64,000 nucleotides of DNA from Geobacteraceae bacterium (lineage in GTDB: Bacteria > Desulfobacterota > Desulfuromonadia > Geobacterales > Pseudopelobacteraceae): positions 1 through 64,000 of the forward strand of contig JANXZX010000200.1 in NCBI GenBank assembly GCA_025355325.1, written 5' to 3'. The notes beneath the pieces are model-generated. The model was not told the origin of the DNA. It did no database searches and saw only the letters and a program-made list of their open reading frames with translations. Numbering within the stretch: position 1 is the first letter of the stretch; every line of letters starts with the position of its first letter. Shown piece by piece: positions 51,142 to 64,000 of this stretch. A program made the translations under genes and the position numbers.

Positions 51142-52233
51142 ATGACCAAATCAAATGAAAGTCTACAGCAGGCTAACACACGAATTCTGGTTGTGGATGA
51201 TGATCCTGGTATCCTTGCCTCGCTGAGTTGCATGTTGTCTGACAGCGGATACACCGTGCTGCCCTATACAAACGGTGCTGATGCACTGAAAGCGATCCCG
51301 CTTGAAGCTCCGGATTTAATTTTGCTGGACATCTTTATGCCGGAAATGGACGGTTATGAGGTTTGTAAGTGCGTCAAACAAAACAATGAAATAAAGGACA
51401 TACCGGTCATCTTTATGAGCGGAATGAACGCAGTGGAAGATAAAATAAGAGGTTTTAAAGTGGGAGGAGTTGATTACATTACAAAACCTTTCCACCCTGA
51501 AGAAGTGCAAGCCAGAATTACTACTCATGTAAATCTGAGTACTTTCCGCAACAAACTCGAATATCAGAAGTTGGTTGAAAAGAAGATTCGAGAGGTTGCG
51601 GAAGCCCAGCAGGCGACAATATTTGCCCTGGCCAAACTTGCCGAACAACGTGACGGCGACACCGGGGGGCATTTGGAGCGGGTTCGCGACTACTGTAAGC
51701 TCCTCGCGCAGCAACTGGCCAACGGTTCTCCCTATGCAGATCATATATCTGATGAATTCATAGAGTGCATTCAGCACGCATCTCCACTGCACGACATCGG
51801 CAAGGTTGCCATATCTGACGCCATCCTCCAGAAAAAGGGCAAGCTGACTCAGGAAGAATTTGAAATTATGCAGACCCATTCCATTATCGGAGCGGAGAAC
51901 ATGCAGTCAGTCTATAACAAATATCCCGAAAATCCGTTTATCGGCATGGGGATTGAGATAGCCTTGTATCACCACGAACGGTGGGATGGTAAGGGATACC
52001 CCGATGGACTGATCGGCAGAAATATCCCGCTATCCGCCAGAATCATGGCGGTGGCGGACTGTTACGATGCTCTTCGTTCAGATCGTTGTTACCGGAAGGG
52101 CCTTGAACACGAAAAAGTGAAGGAAATGCTGCTGGAGGAAGAGGGAACGCACTTTGATCCGGAGATAATCAAGGCGTTTCTTGCTGTTGAGGATTTGTTC
52201 TGGCACATCATGGATACTAACGAATATACATGA
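51142..52233 (+). CDS. Response regulator with HD-GYP phosphodiesterase domain
   Basis: 363 residues. The receiver domain (about 13-135) has ILVVDDDPG, the acceptor Asp in LILLDIFMPEMDGYEV and YITKPF. After a short coiled coil comes the HD-GYP domain with LHDIGKVA and HHERWDGKGYPDG, both full motifs. It should hydrolyse cyclic dinucleotides on phosphorylation. It stands alone, without an adjacent kinase, and shares its architecture with the regulator beside the transporter-kinases; the two differ through most of the chain. Confidence 0.92.
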   Translation: MTKSNESLQQANTRILVVDDDPGILASLSCMLSDSGYTVLPYTNGADALKAIPLEAPDLILLDIFMPEMDGYEVCKCVKQNNEIKDIPVIFMSGMNAVEDKIRGFKVGGVDYITKPFHPEEVQARITTHVNLSTFRNKLEYQKLVEKKIREVAEAQQATIFALAKLAEQRDGDTGGHLERVRDYCKLLAQQLANGSPYADHISDEFIECIQHASPLHDIGKVAISDAILQKKGKLTQEEFEIMQTHSIIGAENMQSVYNKYPENPFIGMGIEIALYHHERWDGKGYPDGLIGRNIPLSARIMAVADCYDALRSDRCYRKGLEHEKVKEMLLEEEGTHFDPEIIKAFLAVEDLFWHIMDTNEYT

Positions 52234-56583: not shown

Positions 56584-57624
56584 ATGTCCTTTCGAACAAT
56601 TGAATGGCTCGATGATACCGTAATTATGATCGACCAGACCCGCCTGCCGGGCGAAGAGGTCTACAACACCTATACTGATTTTCAGTCCGTTGCGGAAGCG
56701 ATCAAGGGACTGATCATCAGGGGGGCGCCTGCCATTGGCGTTGCCGCTGCAATGGGCGTTGCGCTTGGCGCGCGTGCAATTATTGCCGATACCCACGAAT
56801 CTTTTTTCCGGCAGCTCGAAAACGTCTGTGATGTGTTAGGACGTACCCGACCGACCGCGGTCAACCTCTTCTGGGGATTGGAGCGGATGAAGCGGGTTGC
56901 AGAGGCCAACCGGAGCAAAAGTCTCGATGCCATCCGCGAGGTACTCAAAAAGGAAGCGATCCGGGTTGAGCAGGAGGATCTGACGATCTGCAAAAACATC
57001 GGCAAATGGGGCGCTACTCTGATTCCCGAAGGCGCCACGGTTCTGACCCACTGCAATGCCGGAGGGCTGGCTACCGCCGGGTACGGTACCGCGCTGGGCG
57101 TTATCCGGGCTGCCCATGAAGCGGGCAAAAAAATCCAGGTGTTTGCCGATGAAACTCGTCCCTGGCTGCAGGGAGCGCGTTTGACTGCATGGGAGTTGAT
57201 GAAAGACGGAATTCCTGCAACGCTGATTTCCGACAACATGGCCGGCTTCTTCATGAACCGTGGCGAGATTACCTGCTGCGTGGTCGGAGCCGACCGGATA
57301 GCCGCCAACGGAGATACAGCCAACAAGATCGGCACCTATTCGGTAGCAGTGCTGGCCAAGGAGAACAACATCCCCTTTTATGTCGCCGCACCGGTATCAA
57401 CCCTTGATCTGAGCATATCAGACGGAAGCAAAATCCCGATTGAGGAGCGTCCGTCCAGCGAAGTTACCCACATAAAAGGAATTGCAATTGCTCCGGAAGG
57501 AATCCGGGTTCGCAATCCATCGTTTGATGTTACGCCATTCCGATATATATCTGCCATCATCACCGAAAACGGTATTGTTACCGGTGATTACCGGAGCGGT
57601 CTGCGTAAGGTTGCGGGAATCTGA
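56584..57624 (+). CDS. mtnA: Methylthioribose-1-phosphate isomerase
   Basis: 346 residues. It turns 5-methylthioribose-1-phosphate into methylthioribulose-1-phosphate in methionine salvage. [15 protein letters not shown], the catalytic Cys in [20 protein letters not shown] and the Asp in [20 protein letters not shown] are all present. AGAGGAG precedes the ATG. The glnE gene starts one base after the stop, so both are read from one message. Confidence 0.94.
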
Positions 57625-57625
57625 C

Positions 57626-60600
57626 ATGCACATTGAGCGATTCTCCCAGGATTTCAACCGCATCATGGCGGTCTTCGATCCCGCCCTGCAGGCGCAGGAA
57701 CTGGCAGCATATCTTGAGTCGCACGGATTTCAGTATGGTGACCGTTCCGCCGAAAACACACTGTTGCTTCGGCAGTTTTTCACCATTGAGACGCTCCACC
57801 GTATTGTCGTCAACGCACTTCTTACCCCGTCGCCTGATCTGGCACTGAACGCCTTCGAACGGCTGGCCGGAGTCGTTTCACCTGAAATCCTGACCAGGCT
57901 TCCGGAGCGCAAGAAGCGTTTGTCACAGTGTATTATGCTGTGTGGCTCCTCACCGTTTCTCGTGAATTTGATGTACAAATCCCCTGATATTCTCACCTGG
58001 CTGTTTCTGGATAACGGCATCGATCTGCACCGCTCTGCTGAGGATATGCAAAATGCTGTTCAGGCTGATATTGATGAATCGGTCGATTTCGCGGCTCTTC
58101 AAAAAGTATTGCGCTGCTGCAAACGGCGGGAAATAGTGCGCATTGCCGCTCGTGATCTGAATGGCCTGGCTCCGCTTGAGGAGGTCATGGAAGAACTTGC
58201 CGATCTTGCGTCGTCAACGTTACAAGTCGCCTATCAGGTTTGCCGGCGTTGCCTGATACGTGATCACGGCATTCCGCTGGTGAAGGGAGAGTCGGAGAGT
58301 CCGCGTGAGGCGGAGATGACGGTGATCGGTATGGGCAAACTGGGCGGCCGGGAGCTGAATTTTTCCTCCGATATCGATATCATCTACTTCTATGAATCTG
58401 ACAAGGGGGAAACAACCGGTATAGAAAGCGGTTCAGGGAACAGGAAAGGGATCATTTCTCTGCACGCTTTTTTCAACAAGTTGGGGGAAATGATCAGCAA
58501 AGCGGTGTCACAGGTGACGGAGGACGGCTTCGTATTTCGCGTTGATGTCGGACTGCGACCGGAAGGAAAATCGGGCGACATGGCGGTTTCTCTCCGTTCG
58601 GCTGAAATATACTATGAATCGTGGGGGCAATCGTGGGAACGCACCGCCATGCTGAAAGCCCGGCCGGTGGCCGGTTCTCTGGCCTTGGGTGAACAGTTGC
58701 TGAAAACATTGCAGCCGTTTATCTACCGAAAATATCTCGACTATAACCTGATCGAGGATATGAAACAGATGAAGCAGAAAATTGATGCTTCGCTGGCGCG
58801 GTCACGGGAGGGGGAGATCAATCTGAAGCTCGGTCGGGGCGGCATCCGGGAGATCGAGTTCTTCATCCAAGCTCTGCAATTGGTGTATGCCGGTAAAAAC
58901 CCGAAGCTGCGCGAACGTAATTCGTTACGCGCTCTGGACACTCTTCTGGCGGCAAATCTGCTTGGCGAGGATGACCACCGTAAGTTGCGGGAGGCCTATC
59001 GCTTTCTCCGCTCGGTTGAACACCGGATTCAGATGGTGCAGGAGCGTCAGACCCACAACCTGCCGATCAAAGAAGATGAAATGCTGGCACTGTCGCGTCG
59101 AAGCGGCTATCTGCGCGTCAACGGACTGGAGCGTTTCAGTGAAGTCCTGGAAGAGCATCGCGGTAACGTCTCCTTCATCTACGGCACTCTGTTCCATACC
59201 AACGATAAACAGCTGGAGCAGGAGGTTCATCCCCAGGTTCTCTTTTTTCTCGACCCAAAAGCGGACTCGGATCTGGTCAAGGATATGCTGGCCGAGCGCC
59301 ATTTCGAAGATGTTGATCGAGCATATGACAATCTGATGCTGCTGCGCAGGGGACCGGTGAAAGTCAATCTCACCGAACGGAGCCGCCGTAATCTGGAAAA
59401 AATAACACCGCTGATGATTCAGGAACTCTTCGAATCACACGATGCTGATCTTGCGCTGACTAATCTTGAACGATACATGACGGTCATCGCCAGCCGACCA
59501 TCCTACTACGCACTGCTGTCGGAAAACCGTCACATGATCAAACTGCTGGTGTCACTGTTCGGCATGTCCGAATTTCTCTCCAAAATATTGATCAGCCATC
59601 CTGAGCTGCTTGACAGTCTGGTCGCCCGCAGTGGCTCCTCCGCCGCCAAAACAAGGGAGACGATGGTGGAGGAGCTTGACTCGCTCCTTGATCAAAGCGA
59701 CTATTTTGAAGACCATCTGAATATTCTGCGCCGTTACCGCAATGAGGAATTTCTGCGAATCGGGCTGGACGATATCCATGGGCGAATGTTGCAGGGGGAG
59801 GTGACATCGCAGCTCAGCCTGCTGGGAGAAGTCTGCCTGTCGGCGGCTTTCCGGCTGGCGGTTGCCGAACTACAGCGATTCGGGCGGCCGACCTGGCAAC
59901 GCAATGGGAGCGTCGCCGAAGCGAATATGGCGATCATTGCCCTGGGAAAATTGGGCGGCGGAGAGCTTAATTACCATTCGGATCTGGACATAATCTTTGT
60001 CTACGATCACCAGGGGTATACGAACGGCGAGAAACAGGTCTCAAACCACGAATATTTTGCCAAAGTCGCCCAGAAGATCATTTCAGTTCTGACTATGCAG
60101 ACCCGTGAAGGCTACGTATATAAAATAGACACCCGCCTGCGGCCTTCGGGGAATGCGGGCCCGCTTGTAACCTCACTGGAATCGTTTCTTGACTACCACC
60201 GCAAAGAAGCCCAGATCTGGGAGCGACAGGCCCTTACCAAAGCCCGGGTGGTGTTTGGGGACGAGGGACTGGCCGGCCAGCTGCACGATGTTATCCGTCA
60301 TACGATATATGGCACAACAATCGATGATGAAGGGCGTCAGGAAATTCGCCGGTTACGGATGCGGATGGAAAACGAACTCGCCCGGGAAAAGGACGGCAGC
60401 TACAACATCAAAACCGGTCGCGGGGGCATGGTTGATGTGGAATTTGCCGTTCAATATCTGCAATTACGCGAAGGGTGCCGCTCTCCGGAACTGCGTACCA
60501 CAAGCACGGTTGTTGCCCTCAAAGAAATGAGCACGCTTGGACTGCTGCCCGACGGCAGTGCCCAGACTCTTCTCGCCGGTTACAAATTTTTGCGCAAACT

Positions 60601-60802
60601 TGAAAACCGCCTTCGCATTATCCACGACTATTCGGCCAGTGATCTCACTGGAACTAAAACGTACCTGAACAAACTGGCGCGCCGGATGGGGTATGACCCA
60701 AAACTGAAAAATCCGGGGGCCGCTCTGATTTGCGATTATGAGGAGATAACCGGCAAAATTCGTGAGGTGTTTGACCGGCTGTTTGAGGGCGGGGAACCGT
60801 GA
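57626..60802 (+). CDS. glnE: Glutamine synthetase adenylyltransferase / adenylyl-removing enzyme
   Basis: 1,058 residues. Two nucleotidyltransferase domains control glutamine synthetase: the N-terminal one (GMGKLGGRELNFSSDIDIIY) removes AMP, the C-terminal one (ALGKLGGGELNYHSDLDIIF) adds it. Each is followed by its helical partner domain (GRGGIREIEFFIQ and GRGGMVDVEFAVQ). The ATG at 57626 gives the normal N-terminus. It is somewhat longer than the E. coli protein (946). Coupling to mtnA and the large GDH at the other end of the window show nitrogen control in this region. Confidence 0.94.
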   Translation: MHIERFSQDFNRIMAVFDPALQAQELAAYLESHGFQYGDRSAENTLLLRQFFTIETLHRIVVNALLTPSPDLALNAFERLAGVVSPEILTRLPERKKRLSQCIMLCGSSPFLVNLMYKSPDILTWLFLDNGIDLHRSAEDMQNAVQADIDESVDFAALQKVLRCCKRREIVRIAARDLNGLAPLEEVMEELADLASSTLQVAYQVCRRCLIRDHGIPLVKGESESPREAEMTVIGMGKLGGRELNFSSDIDIIYFYESDKGETTGIESGSGNRKGIISLHAFFNKLGEMISKAVSQVTEDGFVFRVDVGLRPEGKSGDMAVSLRSAEIYYESWGQSWERTAMLKARPVAGSLALGEQLLKTLQPFIYRKYLDYNLIEDMKQMKQKIDASLARSREGEINLKLGRGGIREIEFFIQALQLVYAGKNPKLRERNSLRALDTLLAANLLGEDDHRKLREAYRFLRSVEHRIQMVQERQTHNLPIKEDEMLALSRRSGYLRVNGLERFSEVLEEHRGNVSFIYGTLFHTNDKQLEQEVHPQVLFFLDPKADSDLVKDMLAERHFEDVDRAYDNLMLLRRGPVKVNLTERSRRNLEKITPLMIQELFESHDADLALTNLERYMTVIASRPSYYALLSENRHMIKLLVSLFGMSEFLSKILISHPELLDSLVARSGSSAAKTRETMVEELDSLLDQSDYFEDHLNILRRYRNEEFLRIGLDDIHGRMLQGEVTSQLSLLGEVCLSAAFRLAVAELQRFGRPTWQRNGSVAEANMAIIALGKLGGGELNYHSDLDIIFVYDHQGYTNGEKQVSNHEYFAKVAQKIISVLTMQTREGYVYKIDTRLRPSGNAGPLVTSLESFLDYHRKEAQIWERQALTKARVVFGDEGLAGQLHDVIRHTIYGTTIDDEGRQEIRRLRMRMENELAREKDGSYNIKTGRGGMVDVEFAVQYLQLREGCRSPELRTTSTVVALKEMSTLGLLPDGSAQTLLAGYKFLRKLENRLRIIHDYSASDLTGTKTYLNKLARRMGYDPKLKNPGAALICDYEEITGKIREVFDRLFEGGEP

Positions 60803-60880
60803 CGCTGTTGCGGGGATTTTAATTATTTGACATTACGCTCTACAGTGATAGAGTGGGTCGCATGCACTTAAAATTGCTGT

Positions 60881-60989
60881 AAATTGTTAAAGGAATACAC
60901 CGCCTTCTGCGAAGGCGGACGTAAAGCTTCGGGTCTTGAAAAAGGCGGCCGAACCGCCACGTAATTAACGGGGTAGGCTCGGCTTTTTT
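60881..60989 (+). ncRNA. GEMM-I riboswitch (cyclic AMP-GMP/cyclic di-GMP) with terminator
   Basis: The core GGACGTAAAGC followed by GGGTCT matches the GEMM-I signature (GGACGCAAAGC...GGCCT). P2 is a stem CCGCCTTC/GAAGGCGG (60900-60907 with 60911-60918). P3 contains GGCGG/CCGCC (60944-60948 with 60954-60958). GTTAA near 60885 can pair with TTAAC near 60965 as P1. The position equivalent to G20 of the Vibrio Vc2 aptamer reads A (60894), as in cAG-selective GEMM-Ib switches of Geobacter. A terminator (60948-60955 with 60976-60983, then six T) uses the P3 strand, so ligand binding and termination exclude each other. Confidence 0.8.
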
Positions 60990-61055
60990 GTTTCCGGAAG
61001 TGTGGATGTAGTAACCGCGCTATTTAAATCGAAACTTTGTTGCTGAGGAGATCAT

Positions 61056-64000
61056 ATGAACAGCAATCCAGCTAACGTTAGAAACGCCACTCTGATTTCC
61101 TTCTTTTCCCTCCTTGCTGTGATGGTATTCATCTCAACGTCCTTTGCTGCCACCAGCTTAAGAAGTTACGGCGTATCCGGTGGTGGTTTCCATACCGTGG
61201 CGATGAAAGATGACGGCATGGTATGGTCGTGGGGGGATAATGGATACGGTCAACTTGGAGACGGGGGAACTGCCCTCAGTTATAAACCCGTGTTTTCGAA
61301 TATTAGCGGGGTAATATCCGTCTCTGCCGGACAAGATCACTCGTTGGCATTAAGAGAAGACGGGACGGTGTGGGGGTGGGGAAGAGATTACTACGGCCAG
61401 TTGGGAATCGGCTCAAGTGGAGATTACCGAAACGCACCTGAATGGATAAGCAGCCTGAGCGCAATTACTGCCATTTCAGCAGGCAATTATTTTTCGGTGG
61501 CACGAAAGAACGACGGGACGGTATGGACCTGGGGGTATAATTCCTTCGGTCAACTAGGCGATAACTCTACGACTCAAAGCCTCGTGCCAAAGCAGGTATC
61601 CGGTTTGTCCGGGATAATAGCAATTGCTGCGGGTGGCTCTCATACGGTGGCACTAAAAGATGACGGTACGGTGTGGGCCTGGGGAGCTAACTCCACTGGC
61701 CAGCTTGGCGATGGAACGGTTGCTGATAAATGGCAGCCGGTTCAAGTAGAAGGCTTGACAGGTGTGATTGCCATTTCCGCACTAAACTACCACACAATGG
61801 CGCTGAAGAGCGACGGCACGGTGTGGGGGTGGGGCAGTAATTCATTCGGAGAACTTGGAAATGGAACTACATCTACCGGTCCGAATTCTCTGCCGGTTCA
61901 GGCAACTGGAGTAAATGGGGCTATTGCCATAGCTGCCGGCGATGAACATTCAGTAGTGCTTAAGAATGATGGCACCGTTTGGAGTTGGGGGAATAATGGT
62001 TATGGTGTGCTTGGCGATGGGACAAGCACAAACTCATCAACGCCTGTGCAGGTTGTTGATCCAACGCCAGCCGAATCGGGCAGGAAGCTTTCCGGAGTTA
62101 CAGCCATCAGTGCAGGCAGTTATTTTACCTTTGCGCTCAAAACCGATCATTCAGTGTGGGGGTGGGGAGTTAACATCAGTGGTCAGCTTGGCGTTGGAAC
62201 TGCAATTTCTTCAGCTAAACCGATTATGTCGCTTCTTGGTGCGTATGAGATCAGCACAGCTGTTACCAGTTATCTTGGGCCCGGTGGCGCAACTGTTGAC
62301 TGTCCAAACGCAGTTCTTCCGGCAAACATCGGTAGTTGCACGATTACCCCTAACCAGGGTTTTGATGTTATAAACATTAGCGGGTGCGGTGGAACCTGGA
62401 GCGCCGGTAATCCCTACTCCTACAACACTGGCGCCATCTCCGGTGATTGCACCATTACAGTATCACTTAACGCCTTTTCGGTTAATGGAGTGTGCGGCAG
62501 CGCCAATGGTCAAACGCTTCCGGCAATTCCATCCACATTTCCGGAACTCTGTGCCGCTGGTACCCCAACAGCTGTAACGGGCGAACCTTGGAAGTGGAAT
62601 TGCGTAGGCATCAACAAGGTTTTAGACATAAACACAACCGATGCCGCCTGCACCGCGAACTATAGCGGATCTGCCAATTTGGCGGCCGCCGTTGGCAATC
62701 CCGGGCTGAGCTTCACCTATAATGGTGCTGCACCTTGGTTGGTTGACGGTGCAGTAATTAAAAGCGGTGCCATCGCTGCGGGCCAATCGTCCTCCCTTGC
62801 AACGACAGTTGTTGGCCCGGCACTACTCTCTTTCGACTGGAAAGTGACTTCTGAGCCGGGCTATGACAATTTACTGAGACTGACTATTGATGGAGTGCAG
62901 CAAGAGACTATCAGCGGCAATGTTGATTGGCATCAACGCATTTACCCGCTGGGAAATGGCAGTCACTCCATTAGTTGGGCATATTCAAAAAATTACCCGG
63001 TTGGCAATACCGGCTGGTTAGACAATATTCAAGTGACTAATTGTGCCGGTGTTGATATGACCACAGCAACGGCCTCTGTCTCTCCAACCAGTGTGGTGTT
63101 GCCCTTTACCGGCACCACAAGTGTTGCTGTTACTGTCTCCGGTACACCTGCCTGTAGCACCACCTATAAGATCCCCGCAGGATCTGAACTGAAAAGTGGT
63201 ATTTACGTGTTAAGTAAGACTCTTACTCTTACCGTTGGTGACGTCATCCTGATCCAAGATATGTATCTTGGATTGAATGCCAATACCCTCGTGACACTAG
63301 ACCACGCCGGCTCCGGTGCTCTCGACACAACGTTCAATCCCACCACCGGCTACGCAACGACAACAGGAACAAACAACGAAAAAGCGACCATTCTCCACCC
63401 TGCCAATAACAGCAGTATCTTTTACAAGGTTGGTGTGGAAGATACCGGTAATGGCCTGAAATATTCGATTCAGAGGCTGAAAACCAGTGACGGAACTCCA
63501 GTTGCCGGGACAGGAAACGGAACACCCGATCTGGGAGCGGATCCGGTAGCGGATCCGGCAGGGTTTGACCCCAACGGCAGAGTTACGCTCCCAACTATCG
63601 CTACTAACTCCTCATTCCCGACCAAAGCTGCTCTGCAATCGGACGGCAAGATTGTTGTTTTTGGCTATTCGGACGGATTGGGATATTCCTTTGATCTGTA
63701 TCGATTAAATGTAGATGGTTCCCTTGACAGCACTTTTGCCGGCTCCGGACGTTATACCGAAAGCATTCTTATCGGTTTTGGCCCGGTGAGTGGGGGGTCT
63801 GTGGCTGTAGTGACGCAACCAGGAGCAGATATTGACAAGATTATTGTAGCAGTGAATAACGTTGGCGAGGTAGGAGTCGTTCGCTATATGGCCAATGCTT
63901 CTTCTATTGATTCTACTGGAGGTTTTGGTGATTCAGGAACGGGGATATATAGAACAGGCACTGGTGGTTCGCTTATCCTCAAAGATATGACGCAGGGCCC
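61056..64000 (+). CDS. Secreted RCC1-propeller and delta-60 repeat protein (3' truncated by window)
   Basis: The frame is open for 981 codons to the last base; GAGGAG stands before the ATG. A signal peptide (FFSLLAVMVFISTSFAA) is followed by seven RCC1/ATS1 repeats of about 50 residues, each with a DGTVW-WG-N-GQLG pattern, enough for one seven-bladed propeller (residues about 40-400). Then come cysteine-bearing beta domains (FSVNGVCGSANGQTLPAIP, common in Geobacter surface proteins), a MAM/lectin-like segment near 550-670, and from about 860 the first delta-60 repeats (SDGKIVVFGYSDG, YRLNVDGSLDSTF). It is probably surface-exposed or secreted. A GEMM-I riboswitch in its leader should control it. 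Ligand or adhesion target unknown. Confidence 0.85.
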   Translation, partial: MNSNPANVRNATLISFFSLLAVMVFISTSFAATSLRSYGVSGGGFHTVAMKDDGMVWSWGDNGYGQLGDGGTALSYKPVFSNISGVISVSAGQDHSLALREDGTVWGWGRDYYGQLGIGSSGDYRNAPEWISSLSAITAISAGNYFSVARKNDGTVWTWGYNSFGQLGDNSTTQSLVPKQVSGLSGIIAIAAGGSHTVALKDDGTVWAWGANSTGQLGDGTVADKWQPVQVEGLTGVIAISALNYHTMALKSDGTVWGWGSNSFGELGNGTTSTGPNSLPVQATGVNGAIAIAAGDEHSVVLKNDGTVWSWGNNGYGVLGDGTSTNSSTPVQVVDPTPAESGRKLSGVTAISAGSYFTFALKTDHSVWGWGVNISGQLGVGTAISSAKPIMSLLGAYEISTAVTSYLGPGGATVDCPNAVLPANIGSCTITPNQGFDVINISGCGGTWSAGNPYSYNTGAISGDCTITVSLNAFSVNGVCGSANGQTLPAIPSTFPELCAAGTPTAVTGEPWKWNCVGINKVLDINTTDAACTANYSGSANLAAAVGNPGLSFTYNGAAPWLVDGAVIKSGAIAAGQSSSLATTVVGPALLSFDWKVTSEPGYDNLLRLTIDGVQQETISGNVDWHQRIYPLGNGSHSISWAYSKNYPVGNTGWLDNIQVTNCAGVDMTTATASVSPTSVVLPFTGTTSVAVTVSGTPACSTTYKIPAGSELKSGIYVLSKTLTLTVGDVILIQDMYLGLNANTLVTLDHAGSGALDTTFNPTTGYATTTGTNNEKATILHPANNSSIFYKVGVEDTGNGLKYSIQRLKTSDGTPVAGTGNGTPDLGADPVADPAGFDPNGRVTLPTIATNSSFPTKAALQSDGKIVVFGYSDGLGYSFDLYRLNVDGSLDSTFAGSGRYTESILIGFGPVSGGSVAVVTQPGADIDKIIVAVNNVGEVGVVRYMANASSIDSTGGFGDSGTGIYRTGTGGSLILKDMTQG

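Follow-up and report, generated by a model that had tools for sequence, protein, structure and literature searches.

A diverged GEMM-I leader behind glnE, upstream of a secreted RCC1-repeat protein gene in a Geobacteraceae bacterium

GEMM-I riboswitches connect surface biology with cyclic-dinucleotide signals in Geobacter. The base that selects their ligand is G20 in the numbering of the Vc2 aptamer, which corresponds to A14 in the cGAMP aptamer 4YAZ. The described systems closest to the leader analysed here are the Geobacter GEMM-Ib riboswitches for 3',3'-cGAMP, such as that of G. metallireducens pilM (4YAZ), and two Rfam families of clan CL00126, c-di-GMP-I (RF01051) and c-di-GMP-I-GGC (RF03167). 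The ligand-contacting residues of 4YAZ are G8, A11, A12, U13, A14, C15, A41, A42, G74, C75 and C76 (PMC7288161, PMC6274999). In pilM, the terminator pairs with the ligand-binding C75, and the ligand prevents termination (PMC9262584).

We analysed a stretch of 64,000 nucleotides from a Geobacteraceae bacterium (the window), in which the leader lies between glnE and a gene encoding a secreted RCC1-repeat protein. The conserved core, P2, P3 and a terminator with its 5' arm inside P3, all claimed by a first-pass annotation of this DNA, were present in the sequence at the positions it had given. The features are as follows.

57482-60802: glnE, the gene upstream of the leader
60827-60854, + strand: sigma-70-like promoter, TTGACA-16-TAGAGT, 10 of 12 positions matching, with TG preceding the second hexamer
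60881-60966, + strand: aptamer, diverged GEMM-I (c-di-GMP-I clan), matched by clade model R1 and below the cut-offs of RF03167 and RF01051
60884-60890, + strand: candidate 5' strand of P1, UUGUUAA, predicted to pair with UUAACGG at 60965-60971 in a non-canonical position
60891-60899, + strand: J1/2 and base of P2, AGGAAUACA, containing the ligand-selecting base (G60892, A60894 or A60897, depending on the register)
60900-60918, + strand: P2 hairpin of 8 bp, CCGCCUUC-UGC-GAAGGCGG, from folding
60917-60927, + strand: conserved core, GGACGTAAAGC / GGACGUAAAGC, in which A60923 is the equivalent of Vc2 A47 and 4YAZ A41
about 60926-60957, + strand: P3 (UUCGG-GUCUU / AAGGC-GG-CCGAA) and J1/3, in which C60957 is the equivalent of Vc2 C92 and 4YAZ C75
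60948-60983 (stem) and 60984-60989 (six T), + strand: intrinsic terminator, -17.6 kcal/mol
61045-61050, + strand: ribosome-binding site, GAGGAG
61056 (ATG) through the window end at 64000 to contig position 65816, + strand: gene for the RCC1-repeat secreted protein of 1586 aa

The 5' arm of the terminator, GCCGAACC, occupies exactly 60948-60955 and doubles as the 3' strand of P3. The P1 pairing was read from the minimum-energy fold of 60860-60974.

The leader resembles the pilM riboswitch in its clan, its layout, its equivalents of A47 and C92, and a terminator that captures the ligand-pairing C, and it also carries AAUAC in J1/2 if the window is read colinearly. It differs from pilM in that J1/2 is one base shorter, the basal pairs of P2 are lost or changed, and P1 has moved; moreover, its model score is far lower and its orthologues are of the G type. 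Rfam, searched at the curated gathering cut-offs, gave zero matches anywhere in the window. When the search was relaxed, RF03167 and RF01051 were the best-scoring families for the leader, although with 17.6 bits (cut-off 59) and 17.9 bits (cut-off 35) the element stayed under both cut-offs, and absence from Rfam was not treated as absence of the element. Assignment to the RF03167 'GGC' variant was considered and dropped: GACGC is followed by G in the consensus but by A in the window (GCGAA in the consensus versus GUAAA in the window). Eleven clear GEMM-I aptamers elsewhere in the same genome score 42-59 bits, which makes the window copy an outlier.

We built a clade covariance model, R1, from an alignment (A1) whose 37 aptamers come from Geobacterales as well as other bacteria; many had been picked for the same type of P3, and the window element and its orthologues were excluded from this training set. 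Covariation supports the structure of A1, with 91.5% of cells paired as against 85.3% in shuffles, and 58 cells showing two-sided changes as against 23. R1 matched the window element with 32.4 bits; the E-value was 8e-8 for a search of 92 kb and 3.7e-6 genome-wide. In a test close to one that the first-pass annotation had named as refuting, its GEMM-I assignment found no backing from the Rfam models at their cut-offs, but was significant with the clade-specific model. Thermodynamic folding alone was not significant against shuffles (z -1.4 to -1.5) and was not used as support.

A DNA search through 141 genomes of the order identified a 78% identical stretch in Geobacteraceae bacterium GWC2_53_11 (G076). 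A second orthologue, in genome G110, was missed by BLAST across the order and was reached via an RCC1 search and the clade model. In both genomes the element follows immediately on the end of glnE, and the layout of promoter and terminator matches that of the window: G076 has the same promoter spacing and near-identical hexamers, and in G110 the -35 hexamer is also present. The orthologues score 66.7 bits (G076) and 71.7 bits (G110) with R1, and 49.7 bits and 62.2 bits, respectively, with RF03167, the latter being above the cut-off. Both leaders thus share with the window their place, promoter, spacing and terminator, as well as giant secreted propeller proteins downstream, but unlike the window they hold canonical G-type aptamers and stronger terminators. 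Because R1 matches the element and it recurs directly after glnE in two relatives, we firmly conclude, from sequence comparison, that the window element descends from a GEMM-I riboswitch. It is probably vertically inherited, and its position behind glnE is conserved in two related bacteria. No DNA similarity was found in plasmids.

Among about 48 genomes examined behind glnE, a model match was found in only three, namely the window species, G076 and G110. In a further genome, G105, a stretch behind glnE (L063:2392-2545, G105:C7) aligns along the element; its aptamer is apparently destroyed and a strong terminator remains. It has the appearance of a decayed remnant of this riboswitch, a reading that comes from multiple alignment and inspection, without a model match.

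On balance we lean modestly towards reading the leader (60855-61055) as a diverged GEMM-I riboswitch of vertical descent that serves as a transcriptional ON switch of the 61056 gene and probably of the genes behind it, with 3',3'-cGAMP as the likelier ligand and c-di-GMP next. In the absence of ligand, the terminator at 60948-60983 would draw in both the ligand-pairing C60957 and the 3' strand of P3, and transcription would halt at the T run. A bound cyclic dinucleotide would hold P1 and P3 together and block the terminator, so that the gene would be transcribed. The overlap of terminator and aptamer is observed directly, and C60957 is predicted to pair with G60973 in the terminator. Ligand binding, ligand identity and ON polarity are what we infer from these features; since the window terminator takes C60957 as that of pilM takes C75, ON polarity would follow by family precedent.

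Whether the aptamer still works is the main point on which this reading may fail. The equivalents of A47 and C92, A60923 and C60957, are retained. In the predicted three-way junction P2 and P3 form, whereas P1 forms only in a non-canonical register. GCGA is present at 60909-60912 in the P2 loop, yet the fold favours a UGC triloop, and P2 is probably left without its GNRA loop. The basal pairs of both P2 and P3 are altered, and C60957 is paired with G60926 in the lowest-energy aptamer fold. Against a working switch, then, stand the sub-cut-off Rfam scores, the changed conserved columns, a GNRA loop that is probably lost, the unusual P1, the C60957-G60926 pair, the apparent relic in G105 and, in the two registers with A, the loss of either basal P2 pairs or contact residues.

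The main alternative is that the riboswitch has decayed: ligand binding would be lost, and the leader, with a constitutive intrinsic terminator, would set a fixed low level of downstream expression. Of 39 conserved columns, 10 are broken in the window element, whereas G076 breaks 4 and no family member more than 3, and the R1 score of 32 bits compares with about 67-72 in the orthologues. At the same locus G105 holds an apparently decayed element with its terminator kept, and nothing was found behind glnE in most genomes checked. However, P2 and P3 are still good helices that have changed on both strands, and the invariant A60923 and C60957 persist. In P2, the hairpin that reads CUGCC-UGCGAA-GGCAG in G110 has gone from CUGCC/GGCAG to CCGCC/GGCGG, and P3 is re-zipped as UUCGG/CCGAA. 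A60953 is paired in P3 but mismatched in the terminator. Because A60953 favours P3 over the terminator and the changes in P2 relative to G110 are two-sided, the sequence suggests that selection has acted on the aptamer. The terminator is, furthermore, weaker than those of the orthologues (-17.6 versus -26.5 and -30.7 kcal/mol), a weakening that would not be expected of a pure attenuator. Compared with the best terminator-free fold, the terminated fold is favoured by 9.6 kcal/mol in the window versus 15.0 and 21.3 kcal/mol in the orthologues. We regard decay as possible but less likely than a working switch.

If the leader is a working switch, the base expected to select its ligand depends on how J1/2 is aligned. 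The first-pass annotation had placed A60894 at the ligand-selecting position whether the alignment was made from the left or from the right. Base 60894 is indeed A, but the left alignment (AAAG) gives G60892. In the register of RF03167, J1/2 is UUAAAG and G60892 takes the selecting position, as in loci L136 and L050. R1 places A60894 there with high posterior and keeps the basal P2 pairs A60895-U60922 and U60896-G60921, but loses the G8 and A12 contact residues. Colinear alignment to G076 and G110, which is gap-free between AATTGT and TGCGAAGG, puts A60897 at the selecting position, and the match-start coordinates of RF01051 suggest that this model does so as well. In the colinear register all 11 of the 4YAZ ligand-contacting residues are present, at the cost of two basal P2 pairs, C60898-U60922 and A60899-G60921 being unpaired. 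Taken together, these registers favour A over G at the selecting position of the leader, though at no definite base.

The genome has 29 GGDEF matches, and one of these proteins (L205, G000:C142) resembles GacA. This protein of 461 aa has an N-terminal response-regulator-like region and adjoins a histidyl-tRNA-synthetase-like gene; among solved structures the Hypr cyclase 6d9m matches it best, and in its GGDEF-type motif, here GGDEY, the Asp is preceded at a distance of 26 residues by Ser. The Hypr signature of GacA is S347/D373 (PMC6456294). The 461-aa protein is thus likely, judging by its sequence, to be the GacA orthologue and a Hypr synthase, and a second candidate with the Hypr-signature Ser is present (L204, G000:C18). 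Eight GEMM-I aptamers of the genome have an A-type J1/2, AAUAC. A GacA-like Hypr cyclase together with eight A-type GEMM-I riboswitches makes it likely that the cell produces cGAMP and runs a cGAMP circuit. The earlier proposal of a transcriptional cAG switch, probably ON, is partly supported: it retains its GEMM-I ancestry, its transcriptional platform (a terminator that takes P3 and C60957) and a cell with cGAMP machinery, but its ligand is less clear, the selecting base being A in two registers and G in one. Also in the window, at 51142-52233 and some 9 kb upstream of the switch, is a response regulator with an HD-GYP-type domain (HD_5), possibly a cyclic-dinucleotide phosphodiesterase.

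A working switch could instead have kept an ancestral preference for c-di-GMP, with G60892 as the selecting base and additional bases between J1/2 and P2. The RF03167 register is consistent with this, both intact orthologues have G at the selecting position, and the genome encodes many ordinary GGDEF cyclases. Given the three-way colinear alignment, however, the G60892 register requires the most insertions and deletions of the three, and it leaves A60894 unpaired opposite G60921. We consider a c-di-GMP switch rather unlikely; it overlaps with the reading as a working switch, so the likelihoods given to the readings here do not sum to one. If the base is A, the orthologous glnE-locus riboswitch would have switched its ligand preference within a genus, from the c-di-GMP type (G, as in G076 and G110) to the cGAMP type (A), with the aptamer rebuilt around the change, its P2 shifted, its P3 re-zipped and its P1 new, which we put forward as a tentative and still doubtful idea. 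That a terminator hairpin merely happens to lie beside a GGACG-AAAGC string, unrelated to GEMM-I, agrees with the zero Rfam matches at cut-off and with a folding energy not significantly below shuffles, but is exceedingly improbable and already refuted by synteny and the R1 match, that is, by the E-value of 3.7e-6 of an independent clade model and a syntenic, 78% identical orthologue that is itself a clear GEMM-I element.

In our preferred reading as a working switch, the direct target is the 61056 gene, whose product combines RCC1 repeats with a DUF5122 propeller stretch. Behind it follow, in order, genes for a short lipoprotein-like protein and for TPR, FecR and CHASE2-cyclase proteins, and the genes from 61056 through the CHASE2-cyclase probably form one operon. 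The CHASE2-cyclase gene (L112:8416-10401, contig 68415-70400) lies at the end of this probable operon, so the amount of a class III nucleotide cyclase may be governed by a cyclic-dinucleotide leader.

The next genes differ at the orthologous loci. Downstream of the G110 switch are a CNB remnant and the gene for an RCC1 protein that is 3541 aa long and carries lectin-like and Ig-like domains. Downstream of the G076 switch are a CNB-transglutaminase gene and the gene for a protein that exceeds 2800 aa and contains Kelch, DUF5122 and MBG domains. A giant secreted propeller protein is encoded behind each of the three glnE-locus switches. The link to an RCC1 surface protein, a large secreted propeller protein as target, proved stronger than the first-pass annotation had claimed: a GEMM-I-like element lies directly upstream of 14 of the bacterial family's 31 distinct RCC1 genes, a count that includes the window and one weak match. 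About ten of the 14 belong to one orthologous group of proteins of about 400 aa, often behind two tandem A-type aptamers, which leaves few independent cases, namely this group, the glnE locus and possibly G108. Members of the group occur across the genus (L007/L168 at G000:C10:6291-6375, L147, L151, L155, L156, L159, L160, L169, L173 and L185), the one on G000:C10 being in the window's own genome.

A weak GEMM-I-like pair (AAAAGGUACAGCAUGGGCAA...), scoring about 22 bits, was seen at L012:915-990 (G000:C190) and L182:4417-4500 (G108:C40). One of the two precedes a protein that resembles PilZ by eye, and the other lies 365 nt before an RCC1 protein. L012 is a weak RF01051 match in the same genome as the window, a separate and also diverged element, and the pair is possibly another diverged sub-type. 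A literature search for RCC1, Geobacter and riboswitch together found nothing; it covered mainly open papers and is no proof of novelty.

The window locus represents a GEMM-I element that general models miss. The glnE locus offers a short natural series, in which G110 and G076 have intact aptamers, the window has a strongly diverged one and that of G105 is apparently decayed; it allows ligand change to be tested directly against decay. GEMM-I elements that recur before RCC1 and other giant secreted propeller proteins add a class of surface proteins that are likely controlled by cyclic dinucleotides.
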